From NCBI RefSeq assembly GCF_000282035.1, contig NZ_AKKA01000070.1:1-64000 (forward strand): 64,000 bases of DNA. The letters are read 5' to 3'. The notes beneath the pieces are model-generated. The model worked only from the letters and a program-made list of their open reading frames with translations, did no database searches and was not told where the DNA came from. Below are positions 6,212-60,585 of this stretch, piece after piece (the first letter of the stretch is position 1; every line of letters starts with the position of its first letter). The DNA is from Rhizobium sp. CF122. GTDB taxonomy: Bacteria > Pseudomonadota > Alphaproteobacteria > Rhizobiales > Rhizobiaceae. The translations under genes were made by a program, and so were the position numbers.

Positions 6212-6919
6212 ATGCGCGTGCTCGTGACCCGTCCCCAGTATTCGGGCGAGCGCACCGCCAAGCGTCTTCGCGAGCTGGGACACGAACCGATATCGCTGCC
6301 GCTGTCGCAGCCGGTTCACTACGTTGATGCAGCGGTACGTGGCCTCGAGACGACCGAAGGCAGCATTGCAATCACCAGTGCTGAAGCGATCAGGGCGCTC
6401 GCTTGGCGAAGCGCTGAGTTCGCCGTTCACCTCGCACGCCCCGTCTTTGCGGTCGGGAAGGCAACCGCCGAAGAAGCACGCGCGTTCGGCTTCGTCTCCG
6501 TCACCGCATCCAGCGGCAACGGCCACGAACTTGCGCAGACGATTGCGGAGAGAGCTGGCGGCCCCGTTCTGTATCTGACCGGCCTGCCAAGAGCCGAGAC
6601 CTTCGAGAAGCGAGCGCGCGAAATCGGCCTGGAGATCACTGTCGCCGAATGTTACCGGATGGAGCCGACACGGATCGCACCGCAGACGCTGGAAACGATC
6701 TTTGCACACCAACGGCCGGATGCGATCCTCTTCTACTCGCGTCAGACAGCCGAAAACTTCTTCGGCATGGTCGAGGCGCACATGAGCCCCGATGCGCTAG
6801 ATGGGACGCGCCTTCTCTGCCTCAGCAAGTCCGTTGCGGAGGCAGTCCCGATGCCACTGCAGGGCGCCGTGAGCATCGCGACGATGCCGGAGGAGCGCAG
6901 CCTTTTGTCGCTCCTTTGA
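6212..6919 (+). CDS. hemD: Uroporphyrinogen-III synthase
   Basis: HemD closes and inverts ring D of hydroxymethylbilane to give uroporphyrinogen III. The 235-residue protein has the expected low-conservation two-domain form: MRVLVTRPQYSGERTAKRL at the start, ITSAEAIRAL near residue 55, LYLTGLPRAETFEKRA in the middle, and DAILFYSRQTAENFF near residue 170. The ATG at 6212 lies 7 nt after hemC. Position directly behind hemC supports the call, since HemD alone diverges strongly. An 88-nt gap separates it from the mitofilin gene. Confidence 0.95.
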   Translation: MRVLVTRPQYSGERTAKRLRELGHEPISLPLSQPVHYVDAAVRGLETTEGSIAITSAEAIRALAWRSAEFAVHLARPVFAVGKATAEEARAFGFVSVTASSGNGHELAQTIAERAGGPVLYLTGLPRAETFEKRAREIGLEITVAECYRMEPTRIAPQTLETIFAHQRPDAILFYSRQTAENFFGMVEAHMSPDALDGTRLLCLSKSVAEAVPMPLQGAVSIATMPEERSLLSLL

Positions 6920-7007
6920 ACGCTTAGATGCCCAAATTTCATCTAACCTCTTTCCTTGACTGGCATCACTGATTAGTTTCCTTGCGATGCATTAAGATGA
7001 GGATCTC

Positions 7008-8228
7008 ATGGCACCAGGAAATCCGCCTCGCCACTCGAAGAGCACCGAAGAGCCGGTCACTATCGATCTGGACACGCAGGAATTTGCTTCTGCCAAGGAT
7101 GCCGAAACGAAGGCCGAGGAGCCGACCGATGAACCGGACGCGAGCCCCTCAGATGAACCCGCAGCGCAGGCCGAAACGCCCAATGAGCCGCCGCCTCATG
7201 AAGCGCCAACAGCTGCTGAGCCCGTGGCTAATGAGCCGGTTCCTCCGGCGCCGCCTGCCTCGCAGCGGGGTAGCACGTCGTCCTTGGTCGCCGCCGGTAT
7301 TGTTGGTGGTCTAATAGCATTGGTCGGCGCCGGGGCCATTCAATATGCCGGCTACCTGCCCAGCCCGTCCGCTCCCGCTGTACCATCTGCCGATGTCACC
7401 AATCTCTCCGCCGAAATCGACGGGCTGAAGCAATCGGTCGCCAATCTCACCGCTGCCCCCTCCACATCAGATAACAGTGCGCTGGAGCAGCGCATTGCGG
7501 CATTGGAAGCGACCGCCAAGAACCCGACCGCTGCTGCCACCGACACGCCGGCAGTCGATGCGCTCAATCAGAAAATTGTCGACTTGACCGGCCAGATTGA
7601 CGAGTTGCGTGGCGCCGTCACTCAGGCCTCGGAACAGAAAACCTCCGACAGCGCCGAAATGGAGCAACGTCTGGCTGAAGCGGAAAAGAAGCTCAATGAA
7701 CCGCGGCAGGATGTCGCCGTCGCCAAGGCGATCGCGGCCGCCGCGCTGAAGGCGGCGATCGATCGCGGCGGGCCGTTCGTTGCCGAACTCGACACGTTTG
7801 CCGGCGTCTCCCCTGATGATCCCGCGACCACAGATCTGCGCAATTTCGCGGAGACCGGCGTTCCCTCGCGTGCCGAGCTGGTCCGCCAGGTACCGGACGT
7901 CGCAACGGCTATCGTCGATTCCGTTAATCAGACCGACCCCAACCAGAGTTGGTCCGACCGATTGATGGCGAGTGCCAAATCGTTGGTGAAGGTTCGTCCC
8001 GTCGGCAATGTCGAGGGCGAGAGCGTAGAGGCGATCGCCGCACGCATGGAGGACAAGGTGAAGAACGGCGACCTGCAGGGCGCCGCATCCGAATGGGCCA
8101 ATCTGCCGGCTCAGGCGAAACAGGCATCCGCCGCCTTCAAACAATCGCTTGAAGCTCGCATCCGTGTCGAGGATCTGGTGGGCAGCGCCTTGTCCAAGGC
8201 CGTTTCCAACGCCGGCAAGGAGGGCTGA
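7008..8228 (+). CDS. Mitofilin/Mic60-like inner-membrane protein (COG4223 type)
   Basis: The 406-residue product has an acidic, Glu/Pro/Ala-rich cytoplasmic N-terminus (about 1-85), one transmembrane helix (about residues 91-113, SSLVAAGIVGGLIALVGAGA), a long predicted coiled coil (about 130-235, with heptad-like LNQKIVDLTGQIDELRG), and a C-terminal globular region rich in Ala with ESVEAIAARMEDKVKNGDL. This matches the alphaproteobacterial homologues of mitochondrial Mic60, which are typically encoded between hemD and hemY and are reported to shape inner-membrane folds. hemY follows after 3 nt. The family call rests on architecture and position; residue-level proof needs a profile search. Confidence 0.85.
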   Translation: MAPGNPPRHSKSTEEPVTIDLDTQEFASAKDAETKAEEPTDEPDASPSDEPAAQAETPNEPPPHEAPTAAEPVANEPVPPAPPASQRGSTSSLVAAGIVGGLIALVGAGAIQYAGYLPSPSAPAVPSADVTNLSAEIDGLKQSVANLTAAPSTSDNSALEQRIAALEATAKNPTAAATDTPAVDALNQKIVDLTGQIDELRGAVTQASEQKTSDSAEMEQRLAEAEKKLNEPRQDVAVAKAIAAAALKAAIDRGGPFVAELDTFAGVSPDDPATTDLRNFAETGVPSRAELVRQVPDVATAIVDSVNQTDPNQSWSDRLMASAKSLVKVRPVGNVEGESVEAIAARMEDKVKNGDLQGAASEWANLPAQAKQASAAFKQSLEARIRVEDLVGSALSKAVSNAGKEG

Positions 8229-8231
8229 GGC

Positions 8232-9824
8232 ATGGTCAGGCTCGTCATATTTGCCCTCCTCGTCCTGGCACTCGGCTACGGATTTTCCTGGCTGGCCGAT
8301 CGCCCCGGCGACCTTTCGCTGATCTGGGAAGGACAGCTCTACCAGACCCGGCTTATCGTTGCGGCAAGCGCCCTGATCGCACTGATTGCGGCGGTGATGG
8401 TCCTGTGGTGGTTGCTGCGAACGCTGTGGCTGTCGCCCTATTCCGTCACCCGGTACTTTCGTGCCCGCAAGCGTGATCGCGGCTATCAGGCACTATCAAC
8501 AGGCCTGATCGCAGCGGGTGCCGGCAATGCGGTGATGGCGCGCAAGATGGCCGCACGCTCCCGCGGTCTGATTCGCGCCGATCAGGAGCCGCTGATCGCT
8601 CTCCTCGAGGCACAGGCAGCGCTGATCGAGGGTCGCCACGACGAAGCCCGGGCCAAATTCGAAGCGATGACCAACGATCCCGAGACCCGCGAACTCGGGC
8701 TGCGCGGACTGTATCTGGAAGCCAAGCGGCTCGGCGCCAGTGAGGCAGCGCGCCAGTATGCGGAAAAGGCTGCCGACAACGCGCCCTACTTGCCTTGGGC
8801 TGCCCAGGCAACGCTCGAGTATCGCAGCCAGGCAGGCCGCTGGGATGATGCGATGCGGTTGCTGGAGCAGCAAAAGGCAGGCCGCGTCATCGAAAGGGCC
8901 GAGGCTGACCGACTTCGCGCCGTGCTGTTGACCGCCCGCGCCACCGAAAAACTAGAAAACGATCCAGCGGGCGCGCGCGACGACGCCACGCATGCGCTCA
9001 AGCTCGCCGCCGACTTCGAGCCTGCCGCAATTATCGCCGCGAAGGCGCTGTTCCGCGAAGACAAGCTGCGCAAGGCGGCGTCCATCCTCGAGCAGGCGTG
9101 GAAGTCCGCGCCGCACCCCGACATCGGCCGCACCTATGTTCGCGCCCGCAGCGGCGACTCTGCCGCTGACCGCCTGAAGCGCGCCGAGCGCCTGGAGGGG
9201 ATGCGGCCAAACAACGTCGAATCCTTGCTTCTCGTGGCGCAGACCGCTCTCGACACCCAGGACTTTGCAAAAGCCCGCGCCAAGGCGGAAGCCGCTGCCC
9301 GTATCGAGCCACGCGAAGCCGCCTTCCTGCTGCTCGCGGATATCGAGGAGGCTGAAACCGGCGATCAGGGTCGTATTCGCCATTGGCTTGCGCAGGCCCT
9401 TAAGGCGCCGCGCGATCCGGCGTGGGTGGCGGATGGCTTCGTTTCCGACAAATGGCTACCACTCTCACCCGTCACGGGTCGACTGGATGCCTTTGTCTGG
9501 AAGGCGCCTTTCGACCATGTGGACAAAGCGGTCGATGAAAGCACGACGATCTCCATCGACAGCGCGCTGAAAACGCTGCCGCCCGTGCGCGAAGCTCGCT
9601 CCGAAAGCCTGGCCAGCGATCACCGTATCATCGAACTCGAGCGGGCTGCCACGATAGCCGAGGCGGCGCGTCCATCTCCGAAACCGCCGGCGCCAAGCAA
9701 GCAGGCGGCAGAAGCTGCAACTTCACCCGAACCGCGCCCCTTCTTTGGTGGCCTGCCGGACGATCCCGGCGTTCGCAATCCAGCGGCGGAGCCAGAACCC
9801 AAGACACGGCTTCGCCTTTTCTAG
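8232..9824 (+). CDS. hemY: HemY family protein with TPR repeats
   Basis: The 530-residue protein starts with two membrane helices (about residues 4-20 and 42-66), as in the HemY N-terminal domain, then carries helical TPR-like repeats from about residue 100 to 390 (for example AARQYAEKAADNAPYLPWAA and LLLVAQTALDTQDFAKARAKAEAAARIEPREAAF-type units). The tail (about 450-530) is Pro/Ala-rich and disordered. HemY-type proteins accompany heme genes but are not enzymes of the pathway; a role in membrane assembly or protein contacts is suspected. It follows the mitofilin gene by 3 nt. Confidence 0.92.
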   Translation: MVRLVIFALLVLALGYGFSWLADRPGDLSLIWEGQLYQTRLIVAASALIALIAAVMVLWWLLRTLWLSPYSVTRYFRARKRDRGYQALSTGLIAAGAGNAVMARKMAARSRGLIRADQEPLIALLEAQAALIEGRHDEARAKFEAMTNDPETRELGLRGLYLEAKRLGASEAARQYAEKAADNAPYLPWAAQATLEYRSQAGRWDDAMRLLEQQKAGRVIERAEADRLRAVLLTARATEKLENDPAGARDDATHALKLAADFEPAAIIAAKALFREDKLRKAASILEQAWKSAPHPDIGRTYVRARSGDSAADRLKRAERLEGMRPNNVESLLLVAQTALDTQDFAKARAKAEAAARIEPREAAFLLLADIEEAETGDQGRIRHWLAQALKAPRDPAWVADGFVSDKWLPLSPVTGRLDAFVWKAPFDHVDKAVDESTTISIDSALKTLPPVREARSESLASDHRIIELERAATIAEAARPSPKPPAPSKQAAEAATSPEPRPFFGGLPDDPGVRNPAAEPEPKTRLRLF

Positions 9825-9839
9825 ACAAACAGGACCTAA

Positions 9840-10325
9840 ATGTTCGAACGCTTCCAGGAATTCTTTCAGAATCTGACTTCCGACAATGCAAAGAAAGGCT
9901 TCGCCCCCGATGATCCGCGCATCGCTGTGGCCGCGCTCTGCATGCAGGTCATGGAGGCCGACGGTCAGGTCAAGGACAGTGAGACGAAGCGACTTCGCAA
10001 GCTGCTGAAAGATCAGTATGGGCTAGACCGCAAGCAGCTCGATGCGCTGATGGCCGCCGGTCAGGAGGCAGAGAGCGATGCCGTCGACTACTACCGCTTC
10101 ACCTCGGATCTCAAGCGCCACCTCAACACGGAACAGCGGCTCGAACTAATCGGAGTCCTCTGGGACATCGTCTATGCCGATGGCGAGCGCAGCGAGATGG
10201 AGGATGACGCGATCTGGCGGATCGCCGAACTTCTCGGCGTTTCCGCGCGTGAGCGGATCCAGAAGCGGCAGGAGGCAGCACGACGGGTCACGGATACCGA
10301 GGTGGTACAGGACGATGCCGACTGA
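9840..10325 (+). CDS. TerB-family protein
   Basis: This 161-residue, all-helical protein has the TerB-like pattern: RIAVAALCMQVMEADGQVKDSETKRL at about residues 23-48 and a second acidic helix-loop, GVLWDIVYADGERSEMEDDAIW, at about 100-122. The paired Asp-Gly loops are probable metal sites. No other tellurite-resistance genes (terC, terD, terZ) are nearby, so a general role near the membrane or stress is more likely than tellurite resistance. It lies 15 nt after hemY and overlaps the next gene by 11 nt. Confidence 0.85.
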   Translation: MFERFQEFFQNLTSDNAKKGFAPDDPRIAVAALCMQVMEADGQVKDSETKRLRKLLKDQYGLDRKQLDALMAAGQEAESDAVDYYRFTSDLKRHLNTEQRLELIGVLWDIVYADGERSEMEDDAIWRIAELLGVSARERIQKRQEAARRVTDTEVVQDDAD

Positions 10326-11073
10326 CCGTTTACCCGAGCACATCCAACCTCCGGTTCTGATTGTTCTGCATCAGGAGCGCTCGAGCCCTGGCCGGGTTGG
10401 TCAGCTGCTGGTCGAGAAGGGGTATCGGCTCGATATCCGGCGCCCGGCTCTCGGCGACAAGCTTCCCTCCACGCTTGCCGAGCACGCAGGAGCCGTTGTC
10501 TTCGGTGGACCAATGAGCGCCAACGATACGGATGATTTCGTCAAGACGGAGATCAACTGGCTCGATGTGCCGCTGAGGGAGAAGCGCCCGCTGCTCGGCA
10601 TCTGCCTTGGCGCACAGATGCTGGTCAGGCAACTCGGCGGCAAGGTTCAGGCGAACGCCGATGGCTCCACCGAGATCGGTTGGTATCCGCTACGCCCCAC
10701 CGAGAAAGGCCGACTGCTGATGCACTGGCCGAGGATGGTTTATCACTTTCACCGCGAAGGCTTTGACCTGCCGCACGGCGCGGAGCTGCTGGCGGAGGGA
10801 GATACCTATCCCAATCAGGCCTTTCGCTACGGCGGCCATGCCTGGGGTCTGCAGTTCCACGCAGAGCTGACGCGCGCGATGATGCACCGCTGGGTGGTTC
10901 ACGGCGCCCATCGCTTCATTCTTCCGAACGCACAGCAGGGTCGTGAACATCTGGAAGGACGAATGCTCTTCGACGCGCCGCTGAAAGCATGGCTGAACGA
11001 GTTCCTTGACATCGTTTTCAAAGGCAAGGCGGCCAAGTCCGTCGCGACATCCAAGGCCGCCCTTCCCGCTTAG
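10315..11073 (+). CDS. Class I glutamine amidotransferase
   Basis: The 252-residue protein has the class I amidotransferase triad: nucleophile Cys in GICLGAQML (about residue 98), and His and Glu in LQFHAELT (about 178-183). The early VFGGPMSAND also fits the stand-alone GMP-synthase-like group. These enzymes hydrolyse glutamine to supply ammonia; the partner or substrate is unknown here. The ATG at 10315 lies inside the last codons of the TerB gene, an 11-nt overlap in another frame, which suggests translational coupling. Confidence 0.88.
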   Translation: MPTDRLPEHIQPPVLIVLHQERSSPGRVGQLLVEKGYRLDIRRPALGDKLPSTLAEHAGAVVFGGPMSANDTDDFVKTEINWLDVPLREKRPLLGICLGAQMLVRQLGGKVQANADGSTEIGWYPLRPTEKGRLLMHWPRMVYHFHREGFDLPHGAELLAEGDTYPNQAFRYGGHAWGLQFHAELTRAMMHRWVVHGAHRFILPNAQQGREHLEGRMLFDAPLKAWLNEFLDIVFKGKAAKSVATSKAALPA

Positions 11074-11212
11074 CAGCGTGCGCCCCGCACCGCGTCGTGC
11101 TAGAATCCACTCTGGCGATATTCACCAGCAAGAATGCGTTCCGATCCAGGATCAGATCTTGGAAATCTCCGTGCCCGAGCAATGACCAGCAAGCTATCTC
11201 CGGAGGAATTCC

Positions 11213-11698
11213 ATGGCTAACTACGAGCAGAGACTTGCCGCGATGGGATTGGTTCTACCACAGCCCCTGAAACTGCCTTCCAACATGGTCCTTCCGTTTC
11301 CGTGGGTGAACGTGCGCGGCAATCGCGCGTTCGTCTCAGGCCATGGTCCGCAGAATACCGATGGTACGCCCGCCGGTCCGTTCGGAGCCGTTGGCGAAAA
11401 CATCTCCATTGAGGAGGCTAAGGCATCCGCTCGGAAAGTAGCTCTTTCGATGTTGGGCAGCCTGAAGCGGGAGTTGGGCAGCCTTGATCGCATTTCCGGC
11501 TGGTGCCGCGTGTTCGGTATGGTGAATTGCGCGCCGCGCTTTGCCAATCCGCCCGCCGTAATCAATGGCTTCACCGAGCTGATCATCGAGGTGTTCGGAC
11601 CGGAGGTGGGCAGTCACTCCCGATCCGCGATCGGCGTTGCCGGCCTGCCGCTAAACTTTCCGGTCGAAATCGAAGCAGAGCTCATCGTCTCGACCTGA
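11213..11698 (+). CDS. RidA/YjgF-YER057c-UK114 family protein
   Basis: The 161-residue protein matches the larger Rid subgroup: FVSGHGPQNTDGTPAGPFG at about 42-60, ARKVALSMLGSLKRELGSLDRI in the middle, and the C-terminal SRSAIGVAGLPLNFPVEIEAEL. The Arg in SRSAIGVAGLP fits the site that in RidA binds the imine or enamine carboxylate, so deaminase activity on reactive imines is plausible. A strong Shine-Dalgarno (CCGGAGGAATTCC) precedes the ATG. It stands alone after a 139-nt gap. Confidence 0.92.
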   Translation: MANYEQRLAAMGLVLPQPLKLPSNMVLPFPWVNVRGNRAFVSGHGPQNTDGTPAGPFGAVGENISIEEAKASARKVALSMLGSLKRELGSLDRISGWCRVFGMVNCAPRFANPPAVINGFTELIIEVFGPEVGSHSRSAIGVAGLPLNFPVEIEAELIVST

Positions 11699-14230: not shown

Positions 14231-14343
14231 AGAGCTTCCCTCTAAAGGTTAAGTCGATGGTTGCCAGATACTGGGAATCATCCCGCAACGCAACACGCCA
14301 GTGTCGATTTGAGATCCGCCTGCGGGCGTCGGCAGACCGACGT

Positions 14344-16995
14344 TCAGGGCGATACGCGGCTTCCGTGTTGTTCCCGCGCAAACGCCGCACCGGCTCCGAG
14401 CAGCGTCCTTCGTCGGCCTGCTGGCACGTAGCGCAGGCGACGGGCGAGTTGCCTCAACCCTCTCCACAACTGGTGGCCAAGCATCATTCGACGCTGCAGC
14501 CGGTAAGCAAGGATGCCGGTCACGAGGCCTGATGCCACCGAGATCGCGACCGGCAGCGGCGCCGTGAAGATCTTGGGATTGCCGGTATCAAATATGACTT
14601 CCGGCAGGATACGATGCAGCAGGTAGATGTGATAACTCGCAGTTGCGATCGAAACGGACACGGCAGCAAGCAGTGCCGGCAGCCTGACCCGAGGCAGATA
14701 GAGAAGAACCGCGAGCACCGGCACCTGCATGCCGTAAAGGATCCAGGAGCCTGCCCAGTTTCCACCGGTATAGGCCATGAGCGGCATCACCGCGCACCCG
14801 GCGGCGATGACTGCAAGCCGTTTTCCCGCCGAATTCGCAAATGCCGCGCACCACCCGAAAACCGCAAGGTGCAGCACCCATGCAAGAGTGAATATCTGCC
14901 TTTGGCCAACTGGCCAGAGCGCTGGGATAACGAAGTGTGCGAGCACCGCAAAGGCCAGCAGCAGCATGCCGAAACGGAACGGATCCCTGACAGCGAAACG
15001 CCGAACAGGCGGCACCGCAAACAGCGTCCCCCAAAGCAGCAGAAGCTGCGCGAAGGTTTCCACGAACCAGTAGAGATAAGGCAGCATCTCGTGTCGCCCT
15101 GGCTGGGCGAAGCCGAGGTTTCCGACAAGAAACACCGAGGCCCATGGTATTGCGCCCCAGGCAATGCTGAAGCCAAGGACGACGAGGTAATAGGGCCAGA
15201 GAACGAGACCGAGCGGCCGCAGGAAGCGCCTCAGATCGCCGGCGAAAAGCGCACTCGATTGGAAGCGTGCCAGTCCGTATCCGCACAGCACGAGCATTGT
15301 ACCGGCACCGCCCGGAATCGGCCACGGCGTCGCGTGATGCAGCACGACCAGCAGAATTGCGATCGATTTCAGGAGGATATCGCTGGCGATCGTTCGTCGG
15401 GCGCTCGTCGAATGCGATAAAGCCGACAGAGCGCCAACACTCATCTTTTCCCAGCCATCCGGCACCGTGCCGAGCAGCCGCTCAAGACCAACGGTAAGCT
15501 CAAGGTAACGCAGCGAATCTCCGCCAAGCTCTGCAAAGTTGTCCTGGGGCGAAACCTGCAGCGGGAAGAACACCTCGCGAAACAGGCTTATGACCGTTGC
15601 TTTCTCGCGTGCCGGCGGCTCTTCCATGCGCAAGCGAAGTTGTTCGTAGTCGATCTTGCCGTTGGCCAACCGTGGCAATTCCCTAAGGGCGATCGCACGC
15701 ACCTGCGGCAAGCCGATACATGCAAGCATCGCCAGCGCCTCACGAACAACTTTCTCGTCTTGCGGGCCCGTAAAGGCCGCAAGCAACTGCTGGTCGTTGC
15801 CAACAACAGCGGCAGCAATACCTTTCGCAGCCAGCGCCGTTTCGAGCGCGTCGTGACCGAGACGGACACCGCCAATCTTCGACATCCGCCGCAGGCGGCC
15901 CGTGATTCGAAACAGGCCATTCTCATCGCGCGTAGCAAGATCGCCGGTCCGAAGCTCCTCGATATCAGCGCCTCCCGCCAGATCTTGACGCGCCTCGGCG
16001 TAGCCGAGCATGACGTTCGGTCCGCGATAGACGAGTTCCCCGGCAACGTCGGTGCCCGTGATCGTCACTCCCTGGTCGTCGACCAGCCACAGTTCACCGC
16101 CCGGCACCGCAATCCCGATCCGATCGGCACTGCCTGGCAGACGCTCGGGAGGGACATAAGCAATTCGCGCCGTCGCCTCTGTCTGCCCGTACATCACATA
16201 GAAGCGCTGCCCCGCACCCTGCAGCCAGCCATGATAACGTCGCACCGCCTCCGGCTCCATGCGTCCTCCGGCAACCGTCATGAAGCGAAGATCAGGATAG
16301 CGCTGTTGGCGAAATCCACGTTGCTCCAAGAGCTCGTAGGAATGCGGGACACCTGCAAAATTCGTGCATCGCGCTGCCCTGAAATCATCCAGGAATGTCG
16401 GCTCGAGGACTGATGTCCCGGGCATCCAGACAGCGGCACCGACCGCAAGGTGGGAATTGAGCACCGACAATCCGTAGGAATAATGAAATGGCAGGACCAG
16501 GGCGCCAATATCGCCCGGATGCAGGCCAAGATAGTCGGCGATCTGCTCTGCATTGGCGGCAACGGCCGTCTTCGACAATCTCACGGCCTTGCCACTGCCC
16601 GTACTCCCTGATGTCACAAGCATCAGGGCGAGATCAGCATGCATGGCCACATCACGGGAACCGAGATTTGTTTCGGTGAGCCGCCAGCGCCCGCCCTCGC
16701 GGCGGTAGACGATCTCGGGTGCAAATCGCTCCATGAAGGACGACGAGGCCACGCCGTCCTCCGGCGGCAACAGCGCCACGGCATGCCCGCCGGCAAGGGC
16801 CGCGAGATAGGCGATGATCGAATGCTCGGATTGTGCCGCCTCTATCGCGACAAGCTTCTTGCTCGTGCCTAATTCACGGCTTAGCGACGCAACACGATCT
16901 GCGAGTTCGCGATAGGTGATTGCAGGTCGGGACGACAACAAGAGGGCCGGCCTATCGCCCACGTGGTCGATACGCGTCCAAAAGCCATCCAACAT
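14344..16995 (-). CDS. Fusion of AMP-forming adenylation domain, carrier domain and membrane acyltransferase
   Basis: This 883-residue protein joins three modules. Residues about 1-450 are an acyl-CoA synthetase/NRPS-type adenylation domain: LVTSGSTGSGKAVRLS (phosphate loop), YGQTEATARI, ELVYRGPNVMLGY, TGDL and the C-terminal Lys in LPRLANGKIDYEQL. Residues about 465-530 are a phosphopantetheine carrier domain with the attachment Ser in FAELGGDSLRYLEL. Residues about 540-850 hold some ten membrane helices, starting SDILLKSIAILLVVLHHATPWP, as in acyltransferase family 3 (OafA/NodX type). Such a protein could activate an acid, hold it as a thioester and pass it to a surface acceptor. Substrate and acceptor are unknown. 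GGGAGAAC precedes the ATG. Confidence 0.88.
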   Translation of the reverse strand: MLDGFWTRIDHVGDRPALLLSSRPAITYRELADRVASLSRELGTSKKLVAIEAAQSEHSIIAYLAALAGGHAVALLPPEDGVASSSFMERFAPEIVYRREGGRWRLTETNLGSRDVAMHADLALMLVTSGSTGSGKAVRLSKTAVAANAEQIADYLGLHPGDIGALVLPFHYSYGLSVLNSHLAVGAAVWMPGTSVLEPTFLDDFRAARCTNFAGVPHSYELLEQRGFRQQRYPDLRFMTVAGGRMEPEAVRRYHGWLQGAGQRFYVMYGQTEATARIAYVPPERLPGSADRIGIAVPGGELWLVDDQGVTITGTDVAGELVYRGPNVMLGYAEARQDLAGGADIEELRTGDLATRDENGLFRITGRLRRMSKIGGVRLGHDALETALAAKGIAAAVVGNDQQLLAAFTGPQDEKVVREALAMLACIGLPQVRAIALRELPRLANGKIDYEQLRLRMEEPPAREKATVISLFREVFFPLQVSPQDNFAELGGDSLRYLELTVGLERLLGTVPDGWEKMSVGALSALSHSTSARRTIASDILLKSIAILLVVLHHATPWPIPGGAGTMLVLCGYGLARFQSSALFAGDLRRFLRPLGLVLWPYYLVVLGFSIAWGAIPWASVFLVGNLGFAQPGRHEMLPYLYWFVETFAQLLLLWGTLFAVPPVRRFAVRDPFRFGMLLLAFAVLAHFVIPALWPVGQRQIFTLAWVLHLAVFGWCAAFANSAGKRLAVIAAGCAVMPLMAYTGGNWAGSWILYGMQVPVLAVLLYLPRVRLPALLAAVSVSIATASYHIYLLHRILPEVIFDTGNPKIFTAPLPVAISVASGLVTGILAYRLQRRMMLGHQLWRGLRQLARRLRYVPAGRRRTLLGAGAAFAREQHGSRVSP

Positions 16996-17131
16996 GCTTG
17001 TTCTCCCACGCGCACCAAGAGCGTGAGCCGCGACTTATATAAGTTGAATATGATTTGCAAGTTTTAGCGACCGACAATTGCTGCCAGGCAAAGCGATTTC
17101 AGTGAAAAAGCTCCGCTCAAAGCTCGGTGAT

Positions 17132-17638
17132 TCAACCCCAGATAAAGCCGATTTTCTTTAACTGCTTTTGGTCGAAAGTTTCCATGCCTTCGCAATAGTC
17201 AACGCCGCCGTGGCTGCGATAGAACTGAGCGCCCGTCTCGTTTTCCTCGAGGCACCAGACAACCAGTCCATTGCAACCGAGCGACTTCAGCAGGCGCCTC
17301 GCCTCACCAAAAAGCAGGTGTCCGAGGCCAATCCCCTGGTACTCCGGTCGAAGATAGAGTTCGTAGATCTCGCCTTCCTGGGGAAGTGCACGGGCACGAT
17401 TGAGGCCGAGTGTTGCGTAGCCTGCGACCGTGCCGGCGACGTCGAGAACGAGAAGCGTTGCGGGTCCGCGGGTGGCCTTGCGCCACCAATTCTCACCGCG
17501 ACGCTCGATCATTTGCCGCAACGCACGATGCGGAATGATCCCCGCATAGGTGTGTTGCCACGCAAGCCGATGCACTTCCGATATGGCTCGGGAATCGTGC
17601 GGCTCGGCCCGCCGAACATCGATCGACAACGTCTTCAT
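17132..17638 (-). CDS. GNAT family N-acetyltransferase
   Basis: The 168-residue protein has the GNAT acetyl-CoA motif A (YELYLRPEYQGIGLGHLLFGEA, with QGIGLG) at about residues 92-112 and a typical motif B region (NGLVVWCLEENETGAQFYRSHG). The N-terminal SEVHRLAWQHTYAGIIP is common to acetyltransferases of the RimI/PhnO-like group. Substrate unknown. The ATG at 17638 was chosen over the longer frame to 17803 because the extension runs across the AT-rich intergenic region and looks unlike coding sequence. A CtrA-type box lies 99 nt upstream. Confidence 0.88.
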   Translation of the reverse strand: MKTLSIDVRRAEPHDSRAISEVHRLAWQHTYAGIIPHRALRQMIERRGENWWRKATRGPATLLVLDVAGTVAGYATLGLNRARALPQEGEIYELYLRPEYQGIGLGHLLFGEARRLLKSLGCNGLVVWCLEENETGAQFYRSHGGVDYCEGMETFDQKQLKKIGFIWG

Positions 17639-60264: not shown

Positions 60265-60585
60265 ATGATTGATCCTGAAATCAAAGCCCAGCTTTCGAAC
60301 TATCGCCAGTCGATCGACAACATCGACGCGGCGCTGGTCCACATCCTGGCCGAACGGTTCCGCTGCACCAAAGAGGTCGGCGTTCTCAAGGCCAAGTACA
60401 AGTTGCCGCCGGCCGATCCGGCGCGCGAAGAATACCAGATCGAACGCCTCCGCCGCCTGGCGAAGGATGCCAATCTGGATCCGGATTTCGCCGAGAAGTT
60501 CTTGAACTTCGTCATCAAGGAAGTCATCCGGCATCATGAGCAGATCGCTGCAGACCACGCCGAAAACGGCGCCGCAGCAAAATGA
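60265..60585 (+). CDS. Chorismate mutase (AroQ class, monofunctional)
   Basis: Chorismate mutase converts chorismate to prephenate for Phe and Tyr. The 106-residue helical protein fits the AroQ-gamma/beta-like fold: [79 protein letters not shown], with catalytic Arg and Lys in [12 protein letters not shown]. It lies 15 nt after ffh and is followed by rpsP; this order is common in rhizobia. Confidence 0.93.

Follow-up and report, generated by a model that had tools for sequence, protein, structure and literature searches.

In the Dlt system (DltA, DltC, DltB, and DltD), which is responsible for D-alanylation of teichoic acids, and in its AlmEFG analogue, an adenylation (A) domain charges a carrier, from which the acyl group is transferred by a membrane acyltransferase to an acceptor of the cell envelope. 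Ferric-iron uptake by FbpA-type systems is common, and the supplier of ferric iron to FbpA-type proteins is often unclear. An acid-activating A domain and a carrier are also found under iron control in the siderophore NRPS systems that activate aryl acids (EntE/EntB and CahJ). Membrane acyltransferases of family 3 (AT3; OafB/OafA and OatA; PF01757) belong to the TmAT superfamily, together with HGSNAT. The described AT3 proteins use acyl-CoA, and their known fusions involve SGNH, alanine racemase, and NRF domains (PMC9833829; PMC12423673). The window analyzed here, a stretch of 64,000 nucleotides from Rhizobium sp. CF122 (contig NZ_AKKA01000070.1), contains a gene that combines an A domain, a carrier domain (T), and an AT3 domain. 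These parts are known; a search of open-access papers yielded no description of the A-T-AT3 architecture or of its regulation by iron, and the combination and its control by iron are new to that extent.

The A-T-AT3 gene (positions 14344 to 16995, minus strand) was delimited from its open reading frame, starting with ATG, and from family evidence. It encodes a protein of 883 residues and is the only full copy in its genome. Annotated plasmid records name such fusions just 'AMP-binding protein'. An earlier reading of the sequence alone had assigned three modules to this single chain, an assignment borne out by Pfam matches, relatives, structure prediction, and conserved residues. The A domain (residues 1–455; positions 15631 to 16995, minus strand) matched the Pfam AMP-binding model (PF00501; 1.4e-41, 143 bits). 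It displays the features of the ANL adenylation superfamily, namely the P-loop TSGSTGxxK, the YGxTE motif (YGQTEA in the window protein), TGD, and a conserved hinge and C-terminal lysine; R367 and K447 are conserved. Among 57 aligned proteins, the P-loop, YGQTE, TGD, Arg367, Arg370, Lys447, Ser494, His554, and Tyr791 were invariant or nearly so. In the model of the whole protein (mean pLDDT 84.6), the A domain accounted for the best fold matches, which include oxalyl-CoA synthetase, PltF, EntF, and EntE-EntB; CahJ was also among the fold matches.

The carrier domain (residues 466–528; positions 15412 to 15600, minus strand) matched the PP-binding model (PF00550; 6.9e-5, 23.5 bits for a cut-off of 20.8) over residues 469–510, surrounding the motif GGDS494L. 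The same model was matched by 38 of the 40 family members. Ser494 (codon at positions 15514 to 15516) is kept in all 57 aligned proteins. The predicted model places it at the N-terminal end of a helix, within the segment connecting the A domain to AT3, an arrangement shared with carrier folds. The GGDSL serine is accordingly placed on a carrier fold, as had been proposed. One gene for an ACPS-family transferase was found in the genome.

The membrane domain (residues 529–855; positions 14431 to 15411, minus strand) matched the Acyl_transf_3 model with a score of 15.6 bits (residues 541–831), below the cut-off of 31 bits. The same model (PF01757) was matched by 34 of 40 aligned relatives, with a best value of 1.2e-13. 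Folded alone with 38 sequences, the domain gave a confident model (pLDDT 91.7, pTM 0.90) containing about 10 membrane helices in the TmAT fold. The top three PDB matches of this model were human HGSNAT (probabilities of 0.99, 0.98, and 0.96), with Foldseek E-values of just 0.03–0.2. The AT3 motifs (PMC9833829) were identified as K543-X10-H554, R590xxR593, and S787xxxY791, residue 543 being Lys in the window copy and Arg in 93% of the relatives. The sub-threshold AT3 call is real, as indicated by the Pfam matches of relatives, the fold model, and the motifs, and the assignment of the membrane part to acyltransferase family 3 holds. The label 'OafA-like' was appropriate for the membrane domain only, since the 883-residue protein contains no SGNH domain. 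The C-terminal fold and the R/K-X10-H, RXXR, and SXXXY motifs are those of the described AT3 proteins, and transmembrane acyl transfer is expected in both cases. Unlike these proteins, the window protein joins its AT3 domain to acid-activating and carrier domains within the same chain, and iron-regulated promoters precede most of its relatives. The fused carrier suggests that an acyl-carrier, instead of acyl-CoA, may be the donor for AT3; the independence from acyl-CoA put forward in the earlier reading is plausible.

The specificity residues of the A domain separate it from DltA-type enzymes. In the aligned family, the pocket consists of Y172-[S/C]173-Y174-G-L-S177 and an invariant R277. Position 173, which we take from alignment to LgrA and background on A domains to be the equivalent of Asp235, is Ser in the window copy, and the Asp that binds the alpha-amino group in amino acid-activating A domains is replaced by Ser, Cys, or Thr throughout the A-T-AT3 family. 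An ordinary alpha-amino acid is therefore disfavored as substrate, a hydroxy-, keto-, or di-acid being the probable choice of the A domain. Synthesis of 2,3-dihydroxybenzoate as a substrate in the cell is also disfavored, since no isochorismate synthase match above the cut-off was detected in the genome (best scores of 131 and 108 bits for a cut-off of 224.75).

The protein would work as a Dlt or Alm system condensed into a single chain. Unlike in Dlt, an AT3 domain replaces the MBOAT protein DltB (or AlmG), DltD is missing, and an Asp suited to D-alanine is absent from the pocket. Conserved partner genes were likewise absent from the Rhizobiaceae loci. In comparison to EntE/EntB and CahJ, the protein lacks a condensation domain, has Ser/Cys at position 173, and carries a membrane acyltransferase after the carrier. 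A related, described A domain is that of the 'orf3' AMP-dependent synthetase of group II flagellin glycosylation islands in Aeromonas (PMC7874193), which is 33–44% identical, has a nearly identical pocket, and is also paired with a carrier. It differs in being free-standing, in association with a separate ACP, a FabG-like reductase, LuxE, and LuxC; neither an AT3 fusion nor a link with iron was found for this protein. The set comprising ACP, FabG-like, free-standing A, LuxE, and LuxC genes was observed in L051 (positions 6866–11683) and in about 20 other loci of L048–L083. Many of these sets, in Gammaproteobacteria, Bacillota, and other groups, adjoin genes reading as nonulosonic-acid genes. 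Since the pocket is common to these A proteins, which have no evident role in iron metabolism, iron binding is not required of the acid as such.

The A-T fusions form one clade (support 0.95), set apart from most free-standing A proteins, and most of them end in an AT3 domain of the query type. Other AT3 subtypes are present at the C-terminus in L028, L037, and L059. Unfused A-T proteins were observed in L041, L042, and L044, each with an AT3 gene immediately upstream; L050 has an AT3 ORF after the A-T ORF, although this pair could be a frameshifted fusion. Because A-T and AT3 occur both split and fused, we infer that the carrier may feed the AT3 domain. Three additional A-T proteins have C-terminal parts that are not recognized as AT3 by Pfam (L043, 4920–7799; L031, 7935–10808) or that align poorly with AT3 (L039, 49–2910), which suggests fusion of the A-T cassette with transferases of other types. 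The survey of the distribution showed that the fusion is widespread and patchy, being present in 26 of the 298 Rhizobiaceae genomes, in 13 of 109 genera, and in 9 of the 37 genomes of the same genus. It was also detected in Gammaproteobacteria and Actinobacteria, and in 81 plasmid records at a coverage of at least 80% of the query. No conserved neighborhood was observed in the rhizobial loci, and neither a TonB receptor nor a siderophore gene was a conserved neighbor in Rhizobiaceae.

Iron regulation and linkage to FbpABC operons, which the sequence-only reading had not noticed, provide the best clue to the function of the protein. The RirA operator is TGA-N9-TCA (PMC6386902; PMC8822346). Alignment of the rhizobial promoters revealed a conserved TTGAC...TCA element that overlaps the –35 region and fits this operator. 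TGA-N9-TCA was present in 29 of the 44 Rhizobiaceae-type promoters versus 59 of the 464 other ORFs (13%) of the same loci (Fisher test, 3e-14). The enrichment was retained after thinning at 70% (11/20, p = 1.6e-5) or 60% (7/13, p = 6e-4) protein identity. The nine internal bases of the operator vary and the TGA and TCA triplets are fixed. A canonical operator also accompanies the homologue of R. etli CFN 42 (L098). In the window, a variant with one mismatch, TGC-N9-TCA (TGCAAATCATATTCA; positions 17045 to 17059, minus strand), is located 48 bp before the start codon. The adjacent sequence ACTTATATAAGT (positions 17033 to 17044), which is kept in four of five close species, comprises a likely –10 region (TATAAG) and a 12-bp palindrome. 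The form of the operator in the window is TTGCAAATCATATTCAA, versus TTGACTGCGATAGTCAA for a canonical RirA operator. At the equivalent position, the window copy and four close species share TTGCAAAT[C/A]A[T/C]A[T/C]TCAA, a variant that departs from the RirA operator by one mismatch and is the best conserved block in an otherwise diverging spacer. With a matrix trained on the relatives, the window operator ranked 12 of 127,964 sequence windows with a score of 10.2, below every training site (14.8–25). No site within three mismatches of this exact operator was detected elsewhere in the genome. The same genome harbors eight genes of the Rrf2 family, to which RirA belongs, and a canonical operator located 46 bp before a gene for a ferrichrome/ferrioxamine-type binding protein, a spacing similar to that of the window gene.

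Additional operator-like sites were observed. A perfect RirA-like operator (CTTGACTTTCATAGTCAT; contig C24 of the same genome, site near 7005) precedes a gene for a predicted secreted protein of 150 residues (L134, 997–1446). Within the window, the top-scoring site obtained with the relatives-trained matrix is a putative operator at positions 60501 to 60519 (minus strand; CTTGATGACGAAGTTCAAG). The fusion gene of Pararhizobium has, as its divergent neighbor, an operon annotated as Fe(3+) ABC transporter. Close Rhizobium relatives harbor, about 3–4.5 kb upstream of the fusion gene, an ABC operon (ATPase, binding protein, and 559-residue permease) with a distant resemblance to ferric-type systems (L006, 35–3513; L007, 23–3501; L036, 1462–5216).

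In Actinobacteria, a 19-bp box of the IdeR/DtxR type, counted if at least 13 of the 19 bp matched, was detected in 15 of 19 loci, either before the gene or before an operon ending in the gene. The box was located directly before the gene in 10 of 19 cases; the frequency among other ORFs was 15 of 341 (p = 2e-8, without correction for relatedness). TGAGGTTAGGCTAACCTAA (18/19) and TTAGGCTAGCCTAACCTAA (17/19) were the best boxes. Nine of the 19 actinobacterial genes directly follow, in the same direction, an FbpABC-type operon encoding a binding protein, permease, and ATPase, with overlapping stop and start codons in L019, L024, L026, and L033. The two binding proteins tested, from L029 (8k7n, 1.5e-115; SfuA, 4e-112) and L024 (7w3w, 4e-75), matched essentially ferric-iron binding proteins alone in the PDB. 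NCBIfam models for the same ABC genes were below the cut-off and leaned toward 2-aminoethylphosphonate; the ferric assignment is therefore based on the PDB matches together with the iron boxes. For Fur boxes in the gammaproteobacterial loci, the best scores were no better than those of shuffled sequences. The occurrence of sites for two unrelated iron regulators, in two phyla, before genes for the same protein is the strongest evidence of the analysis. Based on promoters and operons, the A-T-AT3 family is very probably controlled by iron, and the same control is reasonably probable for the window copy with its variant operator. An iron-responsive promoter and a link with ferric uptake, the properties looked for in a siderophore enzyme, were both found for the family; the window copy has the variant operator only.

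The best reading of the modules and conserved residues is that of an active protein predicted to activate an acid, load a carrier, and transfer the acyl group at the membrane. As judged from the conserved catalytic residues and the fusion, the A domain would adenylate a small carboxylic acid using ATP, and the acid would be loaded as a thioester onto the phosphopantetheine arm of Ser494. The fused AT3 domain would then take the arm on the cytoplasmic side and convey the acyl group across the membrane to an external acceptor. The product might be, or complete, a secreted or surface-attached ferric-iron ligand feeding an FbpABC-type importer, a step that we regard as rather less than an even prospect. 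Since relatives in two phyla combine control by iron starvation with a frequently shared operon with a ferric importer, the protein probably aids iron capture, by a route not yet described. The whole reading, i.e. a one-protein enzyme induced by iron starvation that activates an acyl group and transfers it across the membrane in order to make or finish an extracytoplasmic iron ligand, is advanced tentatively, at slightly under an even chance. A less likely, more far-reaching possibility is that the protein is a complete, minimal iron-ligand synthase, which would activate the acid, load its own carrier, and, via an AT3 pore, build the ferric ligand and deliver it on the outer face in one step to feed FbpABC.

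Alternatively, the enzyme might modify the envelope, acylating a surface polysaccharide or lipid with iron limitation as one trigger and without any iron ligand. Described AT3 proteins modify mostly extracytoplasmic glycans (PMC9833829; PMC12423673), and iron boxes were not seen for the split A-T and AT3 pairs of Vibrio and Allorhizobium, in agreement with this possibility. However, conserved polysaccharide genes are absent from the surroundings of the rhizobial and actinobacterial fusions, and the ferric-importer operon and the boxes for two unrelated iron regulators point more directly to iron supply, making envelope modification a doubtful explanation. The RirA and IdeR/DtxR evidence would apply equally to an enzyme tailoring a siderophore, either one encoded at another locus of the genome or one acquired from a different species, e.g. 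for membrane anchoring or changed uptake, and the canonical operator preceding the ferrichrome/ferrioxamine-type binding-protein gene is compatible with such a role. We consider it improbable, as siderophore synthesis genes are not co-localized and the actinobacterial partner is an importer of bare ferric iron (FbpA-type) rather than one with a siderophore-type binding protein.

A minimal one-protein synthase of this kind, if true, would constitute an iron-capture route that differs from siderophore synthesis by modular NRPS or NIS enzymes and is common to Rhizobiaceae and Actinobacteria. Being compact, equipped with an iron-responsive promoter, and often the last gene of an FbpABC operon, the A-T-AT3 gene is a direct candidate for the supply of ferric iron to FbpA-type proteins. 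In addition, its AT3 domain would receive acyl groups from a fused carrier arm, not from CoA, which bears on the manner in which AT3 proteins move acyl groups across membranes.

The sequence-only reading had instead stressed a stand-alone acylation machine of unstated role, helped by the pyrophosphatase encoded by the neighboring ppa gene; the module content and the position of ppa, 114 bp downstream on the same strand, agree with it, and it is nonetheless very improbable because the iron-box promoters supply a specific context and ppa, present in 37 of 37 genomes of the genus, adjoins the fusion in only two of nine carriers (the window and G008). The position beside ppa was correctly noted; the functional partnership is rejected. 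In the other seven carriers, the fusion and ppa are on different contigs, and in ten congeners ppa is followed by a GNAT gene after about 90–115 bp. In the window, the same junction contains about 2.8 kb corresponding exactly to the A-T-AT3 gene and its promoter (positions 14301 to 17131; the ppa side ends at about 14300 and the GNAT side resumes at 17132–17138). Comparison with the empty junctions identifies the gene as an insertion, and its adjacency to ppa is coincidental, reflecting, on this genome comparison, a single-gene insertion site rather than a conserved partnership.
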